Assembly (NCBI RefSeq): GCF_004217555.1
Contig: NZ_SHKW01000001.1
Coordinates: forward strand, 992,001 to 1,056,000
DNA length: 64,000 nt
DNA from: Edaphobacter modestus
GTDB taxonomy: Bacteria > Acidobacteriota > Terriglobia > Terriglobales > Acidobacteriaceae
Direction of reading: 5' to 3'
This document shows positions 3,918-32,972 of the stretch, piece after piece (the first letter of the stretch is position 1; every line of letters starts with the position of its first letter). Both the position numbers and the translations under genes were made by a program. The notes beneath the pieces were generated by a model. That model was not told where the DNA came from. It did no database searches and was given only the letters and a program-made list of their open reading frames with translations.

Positions 3918-6900
3918 GCTGTTCTCCTTTCCCTCTGAGCCAGAGAAGGCAACATCTTCCTCCACACAGCCACCCGACCTCGGGGAGCGCGAGCGTGCAC
4001 TGGATGTCACCCGGTCCTGGATCGTCGAGGCCCCGGCAGGCTCCGGCAAGACCGGGCTGCTGATCCAGCGTTACCTCAAGCTGCTGGCATTGCCCGGAGT
4101 TGAGCAGCCCGAACAGGTGCTCGCGATCACCTTTACCGTCAAGGCCACTGGCGAAATTCGGGATCGCGTCCTCGAGCAGCTGGAACAAGCCGCCGGTCCC
4201 GACAGGACGCACCATGCCTTCGAGCGCGAGACTCGCGCGTTTGCACTGGCTGTGCTCGAGCGCGACCGCAGTCTTGGCTGGGGCCTTCTCGAACATCCGC
4301 GCCGGCTCAATGTTCGCACCATCGATTCCATCTGCTCCGAGATCGCACGCGGCCTGCCCATCCTCTCCGGGAATGGAGCGCTGTCCCCTGTCGAGGATGC
4401 GTCCTCTCTCTACCGGCTTGCCGCGGAACATACACTGATGCAGTTGGGCGGCGACGACACCGCACTCAGTGATGCTCTTCGCCTGGTCCTCTTGCACCGC
4501 GATGGAAATCTTTCGCAGGTGCGAGAGCTGCTGGCCGAGATGCTTGCCCTGCGCGATCAATGGGCGCGACTGGTTCCTCTCGGACACGAGATGCTGGAGG
4601 AAGAGTACCTGGACCACACGGTTCTGCCGCAGATTGAACGTACTCTGGCCGATGCAATCTGCAGAGAACTGTCGAAGCTTACACGCCTGATTCCTTCCCC
4701 TCTGCTGCACGATCTCGCGACGGTGGCGGCTGAGATGGGAGGAAATGAAGGTCACAATGGTCAGCCATCGCCCATCTCCATCTGTGCGGGCCTGTATCGT
4801 GCTCCGGGTGAGACAGAAGATGATCTCGCGCACTGGAAAGCTCTGGCCCATCTCTTGGTGAAACCATCCGGAGGCTGGCGCGCCGGCTTCAATCGAAATC
4901 ACATCAACTTTGATATCGACAAGAGCCAGTCCAAGCGTTTGCGTGAAATCGTTCAACAATTTCAAGATCGGGACGACCTACTCAAAGCAATGGAGGGGGT
5001 AGCCGCACTGCCCCCGGCAAAGTATCCGCAGGACCAGTGGCGTGTGGCCAAAGCTCTCTTCCGGGTTCTTTATCGAGCATTGGCTGAGCTTCAGGTTGTC
5101 TTCGCGGAACGCGGGGAATGCGACTTCACCGAACCCGGCCTTCTGGCCCGCACAGCCCTCCGCAACGAAGGAGTGGCGCTCGAAACCACCATGGGAACCA
5201 GGCTTCAGCACATCCTCGTCGACGAAATGCAGGACACCTCGACGAGCCAGTATGAGCTGATTCAACTTCTCACGCAGGGCTGGGACGGACGAAGCCAGAC
5301 CGTCTTTCTCGTCGGCGATCCGAAGCAATCCATTTATCTTTTTCGGCAAGCGCGTGTGGAACGTTTTATCCGCACCATGCAGCAGGGACATCTTGGAGAC
5401 CTTGAACTCGGTTGCTGTCGCCTCACGACCAACTTCCGATCGCAGGGAGATCTTGTCCGTTCCTTCAACGACGATTTCAAGCTGCTGTTTCTCCCAGAGA
5501 TCGACCAGGAAAACTCGCAGGAAGCGCCCTACGTCGCAGCCGAGCCCGTTCGCGGACCCTCCAGAGAATCAAGCAGCGTTGTCTGGCATACCCAGATCGT
5601 GCCTTCCGCTCCTTCCGCTGGGGAAAGAAGACGCCTTCATCGCAGGAGTGCGCGGCGAGAGGCGCTCGAAGTACGGAGAATCGTCGATCAGTGGAGGTCG
5701 AGGCCTCCCCACTCCGACCGTTCGGGGCCTGTCAGGATTGCCGTCCTCGTTCGCAATCGAGCCCACTTATCCGAGATCATCGCAGAGCTGAAACGGGAGC
5801 GCAGCACGCCGCCGATTCCGTTCCGGGCAGTCAAGATTGAGTCGCTCGATGAGCGGCCGGAGATCCTGGACCTCTTCGCCCTGACCCGCGCCCTTCTTCA
5901 CCCTGCTGACCGCATCGCCTGGCTTGCTGTCTTGCGAGCTCCCTGGTGCGGCCTGGAACTCTCCGAGCTCCACCTTCTTACCGGCCAGGACGATCCCACA
6001 CTGACCGACAAGACGATGGAAGAGCTCATCCTCCAGCGAGGCCAAGAGCTAAGCGAGGAGAGTTGTCAGCGTCTGGCGAGAATCTGGCCAGTCCTGCAGG
6101 CAGCTCTCAGCCAACACTCCCGCCTCTCCCTGGCCGAGTGGGTCGAACGAACATGGCGATCCCTTGGCGGAGATGCACCGCTGACACAGGAGCAGCGAAC
6201 CAACGCCAGAACCTATTTCGAGTTGCTCGACCAAGTGGAAAGGCATGGCACCCTCGATCTCGCCCAGATCCGTCTCCGTCTCCAGTCTTTGTACGCCGAG
6301 CCCTCTGCGGCGACGGCAGGTGCCGTGGATTTGATGACCATTCATGGTGCCAAGGGCCTTGAATGGGATGTAGTGCTCGTTCCAGGGCTGGAGAGGAAGA
6401 GCCGCAATCATCGTAGCCGTCTCCTCTCGTGGAATGAGATGACCTCCTCGGATGAACACGCCGCACAGATACTGCTGGCACCCATCGCAGGCAAAGGGCG
6501 GGATTCCGAGGCCCTCAATTCATGGCTCAACCGTATCCAGCGATCGCGCGAAGATGCCGAATCCCGCCGTCTCTTTTACGTCGCCTGCACTCGCGCGCGC
6601 GAAGAGCTTCACCTGTTCGCATCACCAGAACAAAACAAGGATGGATCCATCCGCCAAACGGCCGGCAGCCTGCTTCAGGCAGCATGGGCGGCCGCAGAGC
6701 CGCACTTTGTCGATACCCAGCTCAGCTCCAGACCCTTGATCGCACCCGTCCTCGCCATGCCCCCTGCCGTCGAAAGTCTCGTCCTCCCAAGCCTCGCGGC
6801 AGAAGCTGAGGAGCCAAAGGCAGCCATCCTGCATCGACTTCCCTTGCAGTTCCATCCCTCCCCCCTCCTGCAGCCCACAAGCACCTTTGTGTTCGCGCCT

Positions 6901-27421: not shown

Positions 27422-28465
27422 TCAGTTCCGTATGCCTGCCATCACCCTCTCGACGTCACTTCGCTGAGTCTCGGTCAGCGGCAGCAGCGGAAGCCGAGGA
27501 CGGCCGCCGAAGTATCCGTTCAGATCGCAGCCGAAGCGAACTCCCGGCACGCCCAGCTCCAACTCGACCTTCGCGATCGCCGGCGCAATCCGTGCCTGCT
27601 TCTCTTCGGCCAGAGGCTGGTCCTCATCCTTCCAGGCTGCATAAACCTCATAGCACGCCTGAGGAGCCGAAGCCGCAAACCCCGGCATGGCCCCCACAGC
27701 CCCGGAACGCAAGCCTGCGAGCATCCCAGCCGAGCTGGCGCAGACAACCTGGAAGCTGACCGTCTTCGACCGAGTCTTGATCGCAGGCTTAGGAGGAGCC
27801 GTCGCCAACGCCGCGCCGCCACCCAGGCTCTCAGCCGAAACAAACGTCGCCCCGCCGGCGGCCTCCTTCACCGCCAGCATGCGCCCGGTGACCGCGGCAA
27901 AGACCGTCGTCACCGTAACGTCCCGCCGGACCGAGGAGGTCCGCTCGCGTATCCTCTCGATCCGTCCGCCGGAAGCATCCTCATCCGCCAATCCAATCAC
28001 GCCCGGATGCGCCGCAAGCTCGGCGATTGTCTCAACCGAAAGCGGAGCGGACGCGACGGAGTACAGGATCACCGGCACAGGCGAGCGATCGGCGATCGCC
28101 TGAAAGAAGGTCAGGGTCTCGCGATGCTGCTCCTCCCTCAGAAACGCCGGACGGTTCACCAGAATCGCATCGTATCCAACAGTCGCGGCGAACTCCGCCA
28201 GTTCCAGCGTTCCCGCCACGCTTCCGCGTGAGACGCCCGCAATCATCACCTTGGTCTCGCCAGCAGCACCCATCGCGGTCTGGAGCGCCTCGCGCCTCTC
28301 AGCGTCCGAGAGCATCGCCGCCTCGCCGGTCTCACTGAGAACGACCAGACCGGCCGCCGGTGTCCTCGAGTAGCGGTCCACATTGTGCTCGATCTTACGA
28401 AGATTCAGCCGGCCATCGGGATAGAAGGGTGTGGTCAGCGGAAGATGAAGGCCTTCAAGTAGCAC
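27422..28465 (-). CDS. DapA/NAL-superfamily protein without the Schiff-base lysine
   Basis: 347 residues with the fold signature of dihydrodipicolinate synthase-like aldolases: [16 protein letters not shown] at the start, [19 protein letters not shown] (the TGE motif) and [12 protein letters not shown] with Tyr135. The expected GIKE(A/S)xG segment reads [10 protein letters not shown] at 158-167, so the catalytic lysine is missing, and the usual Arg after the Tyr motif (YNxPxRT) is also absent. An Ala/Pro/Lys-rich insertion occupies about residues 210-240. The GTG start at 28465 has AAGGA upstream and overlaps the carB stop by 11 bases, so it is co-translated with carB. True DapA activity is unlikely; a decayed, regulatory or different activity is possible. 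Confidence 0.75.
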
Positions 28466-31400
28466 TGATATAGTCCTTTCTCAACCGGCCAGCGTGCAGT
28501 TCCTGCAGACTGAAGACACTCAGCGTTCCGCGCTGCAAAGCCGAGATTCCCTCCGCAGCAGCGCGCGCTGCGGCCAGAGTGGTGATCGTAGGAATTCGAG
28601 CCTGCACCGCCGCTCGACGAATTGCCTTCTCGTCGAAGAACGTGTCCTGCCCGCGTGGAGTGTTGACGATCAACTGAATCCGATCGCCTTTGATCAGGTC
28701 CACAACGTTGGGCCTGCCCTCTTTGACCTTATAAACACGCTCTGGCTGCAGCCCGGCAGCCTCAAGCACTTCCGCGGTTCCATGCGTAGCCACAAGGTGG
28801 AAGCCCATCTCGACGAACTGCCGAGCGAGTGGCACTGCTCCTTTCTTGTCGTGATCATTCACGCTAAGAAAGACTGTTCCCTTCATTGGAAGCTGCTGTC
28901 CTGCGGCGATCTGAGCCTTGGCAAACGCTTCGCCGAAGTTGTCCGCAACTCCCATGACCTCACCGGTCGAACGCATCTCCGGTCCCAGCACCGGATCGAC
29001 GCCCTGGAACTTGCCCCATGGAAAGACAGGAGATTTGACGAAGAAGTGCGAACCTGTTCCAAGGTCCTTTCCAGACACGACCTGCTCCGGCAGAAGCTGC
29101 TTGAGCTTTTGCCCTACCATGATCCGCGAAGCAATCTTCGCCAGCGGAATTCCAGTCGCCTTGGAGACATACGGAACCGTGCGCGACGCCCGAGGATTCA
29201 CCTCGATCACGAAGACCGTGCCGCGCTGGATCGCAAACTGAATATTGACGAGACCGCGAACCTCGAGCGACATGGCAAGTTTGCGTGTGTAATCGCGAAT
29301 CGTATTCAGAACTTCGGGAGCAATATCGACGGCTGGAAGCACGCAGGAAGAATCTCCGGAGTGAATGCCGGCCTCTTCGATGTGCTCCATGATGCCTGCA
29401 ATTACCACGTCATCGCCATCGCATAGAGCATCGACATCGACCTCGGTCGCGTCCTCAAGGAAATGATCGATCAGCACCGGACGTTCCTGCGAGTATTCGA
29501 TTGCAGTCGTCATGTAGCGGACCACTGCGGCATCGTCATACGCGATGACCATCGCCCGTCCGCCCAGAACGTAGGAGGGGCGCACCAGCACGGGGTAGCC
29601 TACACGATTTGCACCTGCAACCGCCTCTTCCACGTTGGTCGCCATCGCGCCCTGCGGCTGCGGAATCTCCAACTCTTCAATCAGCTTGCCGAAGCGCTTG
29701 CGATCCTCTGCCAGGTCGATGGATTCCGGCGACGTTCCGATGATCGGCACACCCGCCTTCTTGAGCGGAAGCGACAGGTTCAACGGCGTCTGCCCTCCGA
29801 ACTGTACGATCATTCCGATCTCGGCACCGGACGATGCCTCATGTTCATAGACTGCAAGCACGTCCTCAAGCGTCAACGGCTCGAAGTAGAGCCGGTCGCT
29901 GGTATCGTAGTCGGTCGAGACAGTCTCCGGGTTGCAGTTGACCATGATGGTCTCGTAGCCGTCTTCGCGCAGAGCGAACGCGGCGTGGCAGCAACAGTAA
30001 TCGAACTCGATTCCCTGCCCGATTCGATTTGGCCCGCTGCCAAGAATGAGAATCTTCTTCTTCGACGTCGGCGCAGCCTCGTCCTCCTCGTCGTAGCAGC
30101 TGTAGAGATAAGGCGTAAAGCTTTCGAACTCCGCGGCACAGGTATCGACGAGCTTATAGACCGGCTGGACGCCGAGTTTCTTGCGCAACGCACGTACCTT
30201 CGCAGTGCCTTCCGCGCCAGTCAAGCCCCAGACGGCAGCAAGCCGTTCGTCCGAGATACCCATTCGCTTGGCGGTGCGAAGCTGATCGGCTGTTACTTCA
30301 TCGATGCCGACTCCCCCGATGGCCCTGATCTCATCGGTGATCTGCTTGATCTGATGCAGGAACCAGGGGTCCATCGTTGTCGCGCGCGCGACCTCGCGGA
30401 TGGTCATACCCTTCTCGAAGGCGTAGCGGATGTAAGCGAGGCGCTCGGGATGCGGAGTAACCAGACGCTGCGTCAAGCGGCGCGGCTCGATGTCGTCGGC
30501 CGAGGCTTTTTTGCCGGTTTCGAGCGAACGCACAGCCTTCATCATCGCTTCCTTGAAGGTGCGTCCAATCGCCATCACTTCGCCGACCGATTTCATCTGC
30601 GGCCCCAGAGTCTCGTCGGCGCCAGGGAATTTTTCAAACTGCCATTTTGGAATCTTCACCACGACGTAGTCGATGGTGGGCTCGAAGCAGGCAGGCGTTG
30701 CCTTGGTGATGTCGTTCTGGATCTCATCGAGTGTGTACCCGACGGCGAGCCGTGCCGCGATCTTCGCAATTGGAAAGCCGGTAGCCTTCGAGGCCAGAGC
30801 GCTGGAACGTGAGACGCGCGGGTTCATCTCGATTACAGTCATGCGACCCGTGATCGGGTTGACGGCGAACTGCACATTGCTTCCGCCGGTCTCCACACCG
30901 ATCTCGCGAATCACGCGGATCGCCGCGTCACGCATCACCTGATACTCGCGGTCGGTCAGGGTCTGCGCGGGTGCAACCGTAATCGAGTCACCGGTATGAA
31001 CTCCCATCGGATCGAAGTTTTCGATCGAGCAGATGATGATGACGTTGTCCTTGAGGTCGCGCACCACCTCAAGCTCGTACTCCTTCCATCCAAGCACGCT
31101 TTCCTCAATCAGGCACTCGTGCACTGGGCTGAGGTCGAGACCGCGCGAGAGGATCTCGGTCATCTCTTCGCGGTTGTAGGCGATACCTCCGCCGGAGCCG
31201 CCGAGCGTGAAACTCGGACGGATAACAGCGGGAAAACCGATCTTTGCAGCGAACTCGAGTCCTGCGCTCACGGTGTTTACAAGCTGCGACTTCGGCATAT
31301 CGAGGCCGATCTTATTCATCGCATCCTTGAACAGGAGACGATCCTCGGCTTTCTTGATTGCCTCAAGCTTCGCGCCGATCAACTCGACGCCGTACTTCTC

Positions 31401-31748
31401 GAGAAAGCCCGAGTCGGCGAGGTCGACTGCAAGATTCAGGGCCGTCTGTCCGCCAACGGTGGGAAGCACGGCGAACTTCCCCGAGCCTGCCGACATCATC
31501 TCCACTTCAATTCGGATGATCTCTTCAAGATAGGCGACGTTGAGCGGCTCGATGTACGTGCGGTCGGCGACCTCGGGATCGGTCATGATCGAGGCCGGAT
31601 TCGAGTTGATCAGGACAACTTCATAACCTTCGGCCTTGAGCGCCTTGCACGCCTGTGTGCCGGAGTAGTCGAACTCCGCCGACTGGCCAATCACGATCGG
31701 CCCGGAGCCGATCACAAGGATCTTCGCGATGTCATTTCTGCGTGGCAT
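28455..31748 (-). CDS. carB: Carbamoyl-phosphate synthase large subunit
   Basis: 1,097 residues, full length. Makes carbamoyl phosphate from bicarbonate, ATP and ammonia supplied by CarA, for pyrimidine and arginine synthesis. It begins [20 protein letters not shown] (the PRR start), has two ATP-grasp halves ([30 protein letters not shown]), an oligomerisation region and a C-terminal MGS-like allosteric domain ([38 protein letters not shown]). The ATG at 31748 follows carA by 90 bases containing a stem-loop. Its 3' end overlaps the DapA-like gene. Confidence 0.97.
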
Positions 31749-31838: not shown

Positions 31839-32972
31839 CTACTTCTTCCACTCTTCCATCATCTTGCGGAAGTCTTTGAAGAGGTAGTGGGAGTCGTGAG
31901 GACCTGGACTGGCCTCGGGATGGTACTGGACGCTGAACATTGGATCGGTCTTGTGTTTCAGCCCGGCGAGCGTCTGGTCGTTGAGGTTGGTGTGAGTCTT
32001 CTCGACGTTATCGGGCAGCGAGTCCGGGTCGACGTTGAAGTTGTGATTCTGGGCGGTGATCTCAACCTTACCGGTCTGATGATTCATGATCGGATGGTTG
32101 CCGCCGTGATGACCGAACTTCAGCTTGTAGGTCTTGCCGCCGAGGGCGAGGCCGAAGATCTGGTGGCCGAGGCAGATTCCAAACATGGGCTTCTTGCCCT
32201 GCAGCTTCTGCACGTTCTTGATGGCGTAGTCGAGTGGCTCCGGGTCGCCAGGGCCGTTGGAGAAGAAGATGCCGTCGGGATTCATCGCCAGGACTTCGTC
32301 GGCAGGTGTTTTTGCCGGGACGACGGTGACGTTGATGTTCTCGCGCGCGAGCATGCGCAGGATGTTTTCCTTGATGCCGAAGTCGTAGGCGACGACGTGG
32401 AGGGCGTCACCATCCGCAGACGGCTTCAGAAGCGGATCGCCGGTCTGGTTCTTGGGCTCGGTCGCGTCCCACTTGTACGGTTCCTTTGTAGTGACAACGC
32501 TGGCCAGATCGGTGCCTTCCATCCTGGGGATGGAGCGGGCCTTGGCGACGAGGGCTTCCGCGTCGAGGTTGTCGCCGCTGGCGATGACGCCGCGCATCAC
32601 TCCATTGGCACGGAGGTGGCGGACGATCGCGCGGGTGTCTACCTCGGCGATGACAGGAACGCCATAGCGTTCGAGGTACTCGTCAGCGACCTGGGTCGAG
32701 CGCCAGTTGGAGCTGACCGGCGAGAACTCGCGGGTGACGAGGCCTTCGATGTAAGGCTTCTTCGATTCGGCATCGTGCGGTGTGGTTCCGTAGTTGCCGA
32801 TGTGTGGATTGGTAAGGACGACGATCTGCCCCGCGTAGGAGGGATCGGTAAAGATCTCCTGATAGCCGGTCAGGGATGTATTGAAGACCACTTCGCCGGA
32901 GCACTCCGCCCGTGCGCCAAAACTTTTGCCGCGAAAGATGCGCCCGTCTTCGAGCGCCAAGATTGCTTGCAT
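31839..32972 (-). CDS. carA: Carbamoyl-phosphate synthase small subunit
   Basis: 377 residues. The glutamine amidotransferase subunit that hydrolyses glutamine and channels ammonia to CarB. The N-terminal CPSase domain begins [18 protein letters not shown] and has [20 protein letters not shown]; the class I GATase domain has the nucleophile in [15 protein letters not shown] and the His/Glu of [13 protein letters not shown]. It is first in the carA-carB-(DapA-like) transcript. ATG start at 32972. Confidence 0.97.

Follow-up and report, generated by a model that had tools for sequence, protein, structure and literature searches.

Among the closest described systems for the protein presented here are E. 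coli DHDPS and human HOGA, both reported to assemble as dimers of dimers, with a Tyr of one subunit entering the active site of its neighbour (PMC3369909, PMC3188589). According to PMC3188589, the catalytic set of HOGA is formed by Lys196, Tyr168, Ser77 and Tyr140', which correspond to Lys161, Tyr133, Thr44 and Tyr107 in E. coli DHDPS, and GXXGE is described there as the pyruvate-carboxylate loop. Pseudoenzymes descended from this aldolase family seem to be little described: in the open-access full-text literature, with subscription journals mostly outside the scope, no paper on pseudoenzymes of DHDPS, N-acetylneuraminate lyase or class I aldolases was found. PDX1 is a lysine-using TIM barrel. 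Its plant relative PDX1.2, a pseudoenzyme of the PLP synthase family, is presented in PMC6071262 as a non-catalytic relative of the active subunits, an interaction partner of other PDX1 proteins and a likely positive regulator.

The DNA analysed is a stretch of 64,000 nucleotides of Edaphobacter modestus (contig NZ_SHKW01000001.1, positions 992,001 to 1,056,000), referred to below as the window, and the features concerned are collected in Table 1. To call the members of its lysine-less group dihydrodipicolinate synthases on the strength of the family match would be misleading. Across a large group of soil Acidobacteria this lookalike of a lysine-synthesis enzyme is without most of its catalytic site but remains intact and retains an unusual extra segment, which suggests that it now has a different, non-enzymatic job.

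Table 1. Features of the lysine-less locus, in positions of the window
Feature	Position	Strand	Basis
Lysine-less DHDPS/HOGA-type protein, 347 aa, GTG start	27422..28465	minus	ORF, Pfam, AlphaFold, structure alignment
Putative ribosome-binding site AAAGGA	28474..28479	minus	read from sequence
Degenerate GXXGE loop, residues 44-48, SETGE (GSTGE in relatives)	28322..28336	minus	alignments
Leu109, in the place of the equivalent of the subunit-crossing Tyr	28139..28141	minus	column counts
Tyr135, equivalent of the catalytic Tyr	28061..28063	minus	column counts
GCG codon of Ala160, which stands where the Schiff-base lysine is expected (Lys161 in E. coli DHDPS, Lys196 in human HOGA)	27986..27988	minus	alignments
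Residues 180-236, family-specific insertion separating helix 6 from strand 7	27758..27928	minus	alignment, model
Conserved insertion motif, residues 181-196	27878..27925	minus	column counts
Conserved insertion motif, residues 229-239	27749..27781	minus	column counts
carB (carbamoyl-phosphate synthase large chain), overlapping the gene start by its final 11 bases	28455..31748	minus	Pfam
carA (carbamoyl-phosphate synthase small chain)	31839..32972	minus	Pfam

The protein and its relatives

The intact frame, the ribosome site and the 11-base overlap with the end of carB had been predicted from the DNA and all hold, the frame running over 347 codons with 8 bases between AAAGGA and the GTG. The AlphaFold model (mean pLDDT 92.3, pTM 0.89) predicts a full TIM barrel of the DHDPS/HOGA type, and its least sure part is a linker at about residues 205-228. 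The protein belongs to the DHDPS/NAL superfamily PF00701 by 105.3 bits against a cut-off of 22.1; on the DapA model TIGR00674 it reaches 103.1 bits, below the curated cut-off of 206. It therefore has the superfamily in common with DapA, but differs from it in the missing Schiff-base Lys, in the degenerate GXXGE loop and in an insertion which splits the model match. Human HOGA1 is the best solved relative by sequence (PDB), by Foldseek and by VIA-align. Among the 50 VIA-align matches listed, DHDPS/HOGA structures score Z 36.7-40.6, and the fold of HOGA1 (PDB 3s5n, 3s5o) is shared over 290 aligned residues with Z 40.6, rmsd 1.7 and 28% identity. Unlike HOGA1, the window protein reads Ala160, Tyr135, Glu45 and Leu109 at the HOGA catalytic positions and carries the insertion in addition.

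Three more PF00701 proteins of 306-310 aa, all lacking the insertion, are encoded in the same genome (L284, L285, L286). By score L284 is a DapA (329 bits against the cut-off of 206); it reads GIKESSGN and adjoins a gene for a DapD-type succinyltransferase (NF008808, 299.5 against 204; under the TIGR00965 cut-off), so the idea that the window protein is the only DapA of the cell was rejected. L285 and L286 keep the lysine (GFKDG and GIKDSSG respectively), and L285 (G000:C1:5067138-5067992) lies between two ORFs resembling membrane transporters. A second insertion-bearing copy was not found in this genome. In that respect the protein differs from PDX1.2: the latter, of an unrelated family, occurs together with active PDX1 proteins, but beside the window protein the genome yielded no insertion-bearing member that has the lysine. 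Its lysine-bearing orthologues are found in other Acidobacteriaceae, for example Occallatibacter savannae (L228), Paracidobacterium acidisoli (L229) and Acidipila rosea (L267). They are of similar length and have the same insertion motifs, but in contrast to the window protein they keep the Lys, GSTGE and the Tyr.

Single origin of the main lysine loss

A protein search of 61 genomes returned a match in every one, including 36 of 36 from the genus of the window, of which one (G004, match to residues 1-280) is cut by a contig end and does not stand among the rows discussed below. When 250 genomes of the family were searched, matches at E 1e-14 or better were obtained in at least 228. The reading of loci covered part of the family genomes matched: 203 were read and 202 held a match. 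The tree was built from 185 rows (171 of the family and 14 of the outgroup) with proteins of at least 270 aa, DapA-type paralogues being left out and the catalytic and insertion columns removed beforehand.

The 54 rows which lack the Lys fall in two places of this tree, a clade of 53 (SH-aLRT 100) and the single row L111, and the lysine label changes twice in the whole tree. The clade consists of 40 rows from the genus of the window, the window included, together with 8 and 5 from two other genera. Every row read from these three genera is without the lysine, with open frames of 336-380 aa and no internal stops, and the Lys is kept in 117 of the 118 other family rows. The main lysine loss has a single origin. 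Separate losses in the three genera are not supported by the tree, and a sequencing or frame error was rejected because the loss is common to all 53 rows of one clade; the original prediction had asked whether related homologues share it. L111, left out of the set of 53, represents a second loss with Gln in place of Lys (GIQDSSG). L111 and L126 (genus code g29) both read GSDGE at the places of residues 44-48 and both lack the Tyr at that of 135; since L126 keeps its Lys, this suggests that in that genus the Tyr went before the Lys. Among the named loci (the best 80 of 399, overlapping the other loci) 28 are without the lysine, Edaphobacter aggregans DSM 19364, E. lichenicola, Granulicella rosea and G. 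aggregans among them. It is kept in Occallatibacter savannae, Paracidobacterium acidisoli, Acidipila rosea, Silvibacterium and Acidobacterium, and also in L218, a metagenome bin labelled Edaphobacter aggregans. The clade evolves faster, with a median root-to-tip distance of 1.58 versus 1.09. An orthologue was not found, among the matches listed, in several near-complete family genomes (for example G224, G250 and G175, which belong to the other two lysine-less genera), and the gene thus seems dispensable there.

The catalytic lysine was predicted to be missing, with the GIKE segment replaced by GLADED, and this is borne out by the alignment, the models and the rows of the clade. Residues 158-163 read G-L-A-D-E-D where relatives mostly have G-I-K-D/E-S-S, so that the Schiff-base lysine which DapA, HOGA and class I aldolases carry at the end of strand 6 is aligned with Ala160. 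As alignments made separately may disagree in the degenerate loops, position 160 was read from a named alignment throughout. The structural comparison asked for by the original prediction agrees: in two models Ala160 and the lysine of L228 each stand fifth in their strand, 156-161 for the former and 160-165 for the latter, the number 164 of that lysine being obtained by counting from the invariant His157. None of the 53 clade rows has Lys at this position, which is occupied by V, L, I, Y, A or T. A relocated lysine able to reach the barrel centre was looked for at hand-chosen C-terminal ends of the eight strands and rejected, as strand-end Lys is only sporadic and none is conserved in the 53 rows (at most 9 of 53, at position 104). 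A lost Arg after the Tyr motif had been claimed as well; the Arg is absent, but its loss was rejected since lysine-bearing relatives, reading for example YSIPKFT or YNFPQAT, do not have it either.

Erosion extends to the remaining catalytic positions. The Ser/Thr-Tyr-Tyr proton relay (45, 135, 109) is reduced to Tyr135 in the window; Tyr135 is present in 13 of the 53 clade rows, the window among them, and position 109, Leu in the window, is Tyr in 107 of 112 lysine-bearing relatives. GXXGE, Tyr109, Tyr135, Ser162 and Gly164 are gone in most of the 53 rows. When the four catalytic residues (Ser/Thr45, Tyr109, Tyr135, Lys160) are counted together, 36 of the 53 lysine-less rows keep none, 15 one and 2 two, in contrast to lysine-bearing rows, of which 106 of 112 keep all four and 6 keep three. 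This set of 112 is limited to proteins of at least 335 aa, by which five of 117 (L077, L078, L080, L084, L090) were left out.

Insertion, constraint and competing explanations

An insertion of 30 residues had been predicted; its presence was confirmed but not its size, which by alignment and model is larger, about 55 residues. It assigns the protein to an insertion-bearing subfamily of Acidobacteriaceae recognised by VTxxFxAVTxRM...KTRxKxVGFQ between helix 6 and strand 7. In the model it forms a strand (180-186), a helix (194-204), the low-confidence linker and a second strand (231-237). Thr186, Thr193, Arg195, Met196 and Arg232 are present in 53 of 53 lysine-less rows, and Arg195 and Arg232 also in all 112 lysine-bearing long rows; all 14 outgroup rows, from other families, are gapped at 186, 193, 195 and 196. 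A profile search covered 150 genomes of the order, 14 of them from the other family; 9 of these 14 stand among the matches listed, and each of their matches ends at model position 173-182. The same motifs occur in lysine-bearing members of the family, hence the insertion predates the lysine loss; judged by these motifs it is not part of the loss and is a family-wide trait that came earlier. Being placed between a helix and the next strand, it would lie on the side of the barrel opposite to the active site. In E. coli DHDPS the dimer-dimer interface involves Leu197, as stated in PMC3369909. Five family members are shorter, and three of them, the lysine-bearing L077 and L078 (g49) and L090 (g38) of 321-331 aa, have a shortened insertion and are possibly intermediate forms.

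Constraint was compared between the 53 lysine-less and the 112 lysine-bearing rows. In lysine-less rows column entropy is 2.17 bits higher at nine columns described as catalytic in the literature and 0.25 bits higher at the remaining columns (Mann-Whitney p 5e-6, kinship of rows ignored), and at the insertion motifs it is lower by 0.25 bits in lysine-less rows (p 9e-5, kinship likewise ignored). Pooled pN/pS, from 243 lysine-less and 448 lysine-bearing pairs, gives 0.757 versus 0.384 for the catalytic loops, 0.279 versus 0.388 for the insertion motifs and 0.515 versus 0.465 for the whole gene; the catalytic loops are thus under the weakest constraint of the three site classes measured in the clade. 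Median dN/dS is 0.36 in lysine-less versus 0.33 in lysine-bearing pairs chosen by dS, and 0.13 versus 0.11 in pairs chosen by identity (29 of 31 and 75 of 157 usable), the latter values being biased low and their lysine-bearing set including the outgroup. The level depends on the choice of pairs, and what can be relied on is only that the two groups come out alike. Purifying selection acts on the barrel and on the insertion motifs, and likewise on helix 273-292 and a segment of 10 residues at the C-terminus. Only Pro9, Val83, Gln269 and Asp280 are newly fixed in the clade by the conservation thresholds used, none of them in the catalytic loops.

The protein is intact, constrained and predicted to fold, and its catalytic residues are lost in comparison to active-looking homologues, which is what is expected of a pseudoenzyme. 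The pseudoenzyme reading offered at the outset is well supported by the one loss common to 53 rows, the eroded catalytic residues, the missing replacement lysine and the purifying selection. We consider it rather probable that the protein is a pseudoenzyme throughout the clade and has been retained because the insertion and the scaffold serve a non-catalytic role. From the residues lost we infer that the lysine-less clade would have no aldolase activity, with the counterpoint that the window itself keeps Tyr135; judged by its conservation the insertion is probably the functional part, and the lysine-less protein is most likely a scaffold or regulatory protein. The ancestor would have been a class I (Schiff-base) DHDPS/HOGA-type aldolase of Acidobacteriaceae which had already gained the insertion and may already have had a second, non-catalytic job carried by it, such as partner binding or oligomer building. 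Catalysis would then have been lost in the common ancestor of the genus of the window and the two related genera, with only the second job kept, so that the protein would now serve as a scaffold or regulatory subunit.

A more specific form is tentative: the ancestral enzyme could have been a moonlighting aldolase in which the insertion, with Arg195 and Arg232 invariant and Thr186, Thr193 and Met196 nearly so, carries a separate function, one clade having shed the catalytic half. If true, this would amount to a natural separation-of-function experiment over dozens of species. Active-looking and dead forms with the same module occur in one bacterial family, and the role of the module can therefore be tested apart from catalysis.

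It is unlikely that the protein is an inactive subunit which works by mixed assembly with DapA or some other active member of the DHDPS family, by analogy to PDX1.2 with PDX1. Such an assembly would fit the subunit-crossing Tyr of the two described tetramers and the three lysine-bearing family members in the genome. However, the equivalent of that Tyr, position 109, is missing from the window as from the greater part of the clade; the protein could therefore not complete the site of a partner in that way, and a heteromer of this kind is disfavoured; moreover, as the other members have no insertion, the partners would be distant relatives. Quite improbable, too, is an enzyme that has changed to a non-Schiff-base mechanism, for instance a metal- or acid/base-catalysed lyase or hydratase using the same pocket. 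The predicted fold is intact and Glu48 (47 of 53), Asp/Glu161 (46 of 53) and Thr12 (46 of 53) are still common. Nevertheless all 112 lysine-bearing rows have these three as well, which requires no new role for them, and a changed mechanism is at odds with the variety at position 160, with catalytic loops that are the least constrained part and with the lack of any new polar residue fixed there. Simple decay of a gene without function is very improbable: the catalytic residues do erode freely and the gene is absent from some related genomes (among the matches listed), but all 53 frames are open, pN/pS stays under 1, conservation of the insertion motifs exceeds that seen in lysine-bearing proteins and all of the same-genus genomes searched have a match.

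The carB neighbourhood

Loci used for the neighbourhood had at least 1.2 kb upstream, and many of them span less than 3.5 kb. Within this range carB lies upstream on the same strand, at up to 3.5 kb, in 42 of 50 lysine-less, 57 of 105 lysine-bearing and 2 of 12 outgroup loci; with the full 3.5 kb available the counts are 12 of 14, 38 of 71 and 2 of 10. The overlap in the window had led to the claim of translational coupling to carB. It stands as an overlap in this genome but not elsewhere, as the window is the only one of the 50 lysine-less loci in which the genes overlap. In 30 of the 32 lysine-less loci with a gap of at least 580 bp an ORF of the opposite strand lies between carB and the gene, and in all 12 lysine-less loci with a smaller gap it was not found. 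Conserved translational coupling was rejected on these two grounds. The counts describe an old neighbourhood and not a conserved operon, and a role in the control of pyrimidine or arginine synthesis is accordingly a mere neighbourhood hint.

If the insertion carries a function of its own, the proximity of carB would make it perhaps a partner or anion site tied to carbamoyl-phosphate metabolism. The intervening ORF is conserved, encodes about 160 aa with hydrophobic stretches (reference in L205, about 4382-4865) and has only weak Pfam matches below the cut-off (DUF1475, DUF3792, 7TMR-DISM_7TM); in the genome of the window it was not found by a search run without a positive control. L037 and L044, from other families of the class, are lysine-bearing, have no insertion and lie 2 and 39 bp after carB respectively, from which the carB neighbourhood may predate the family.
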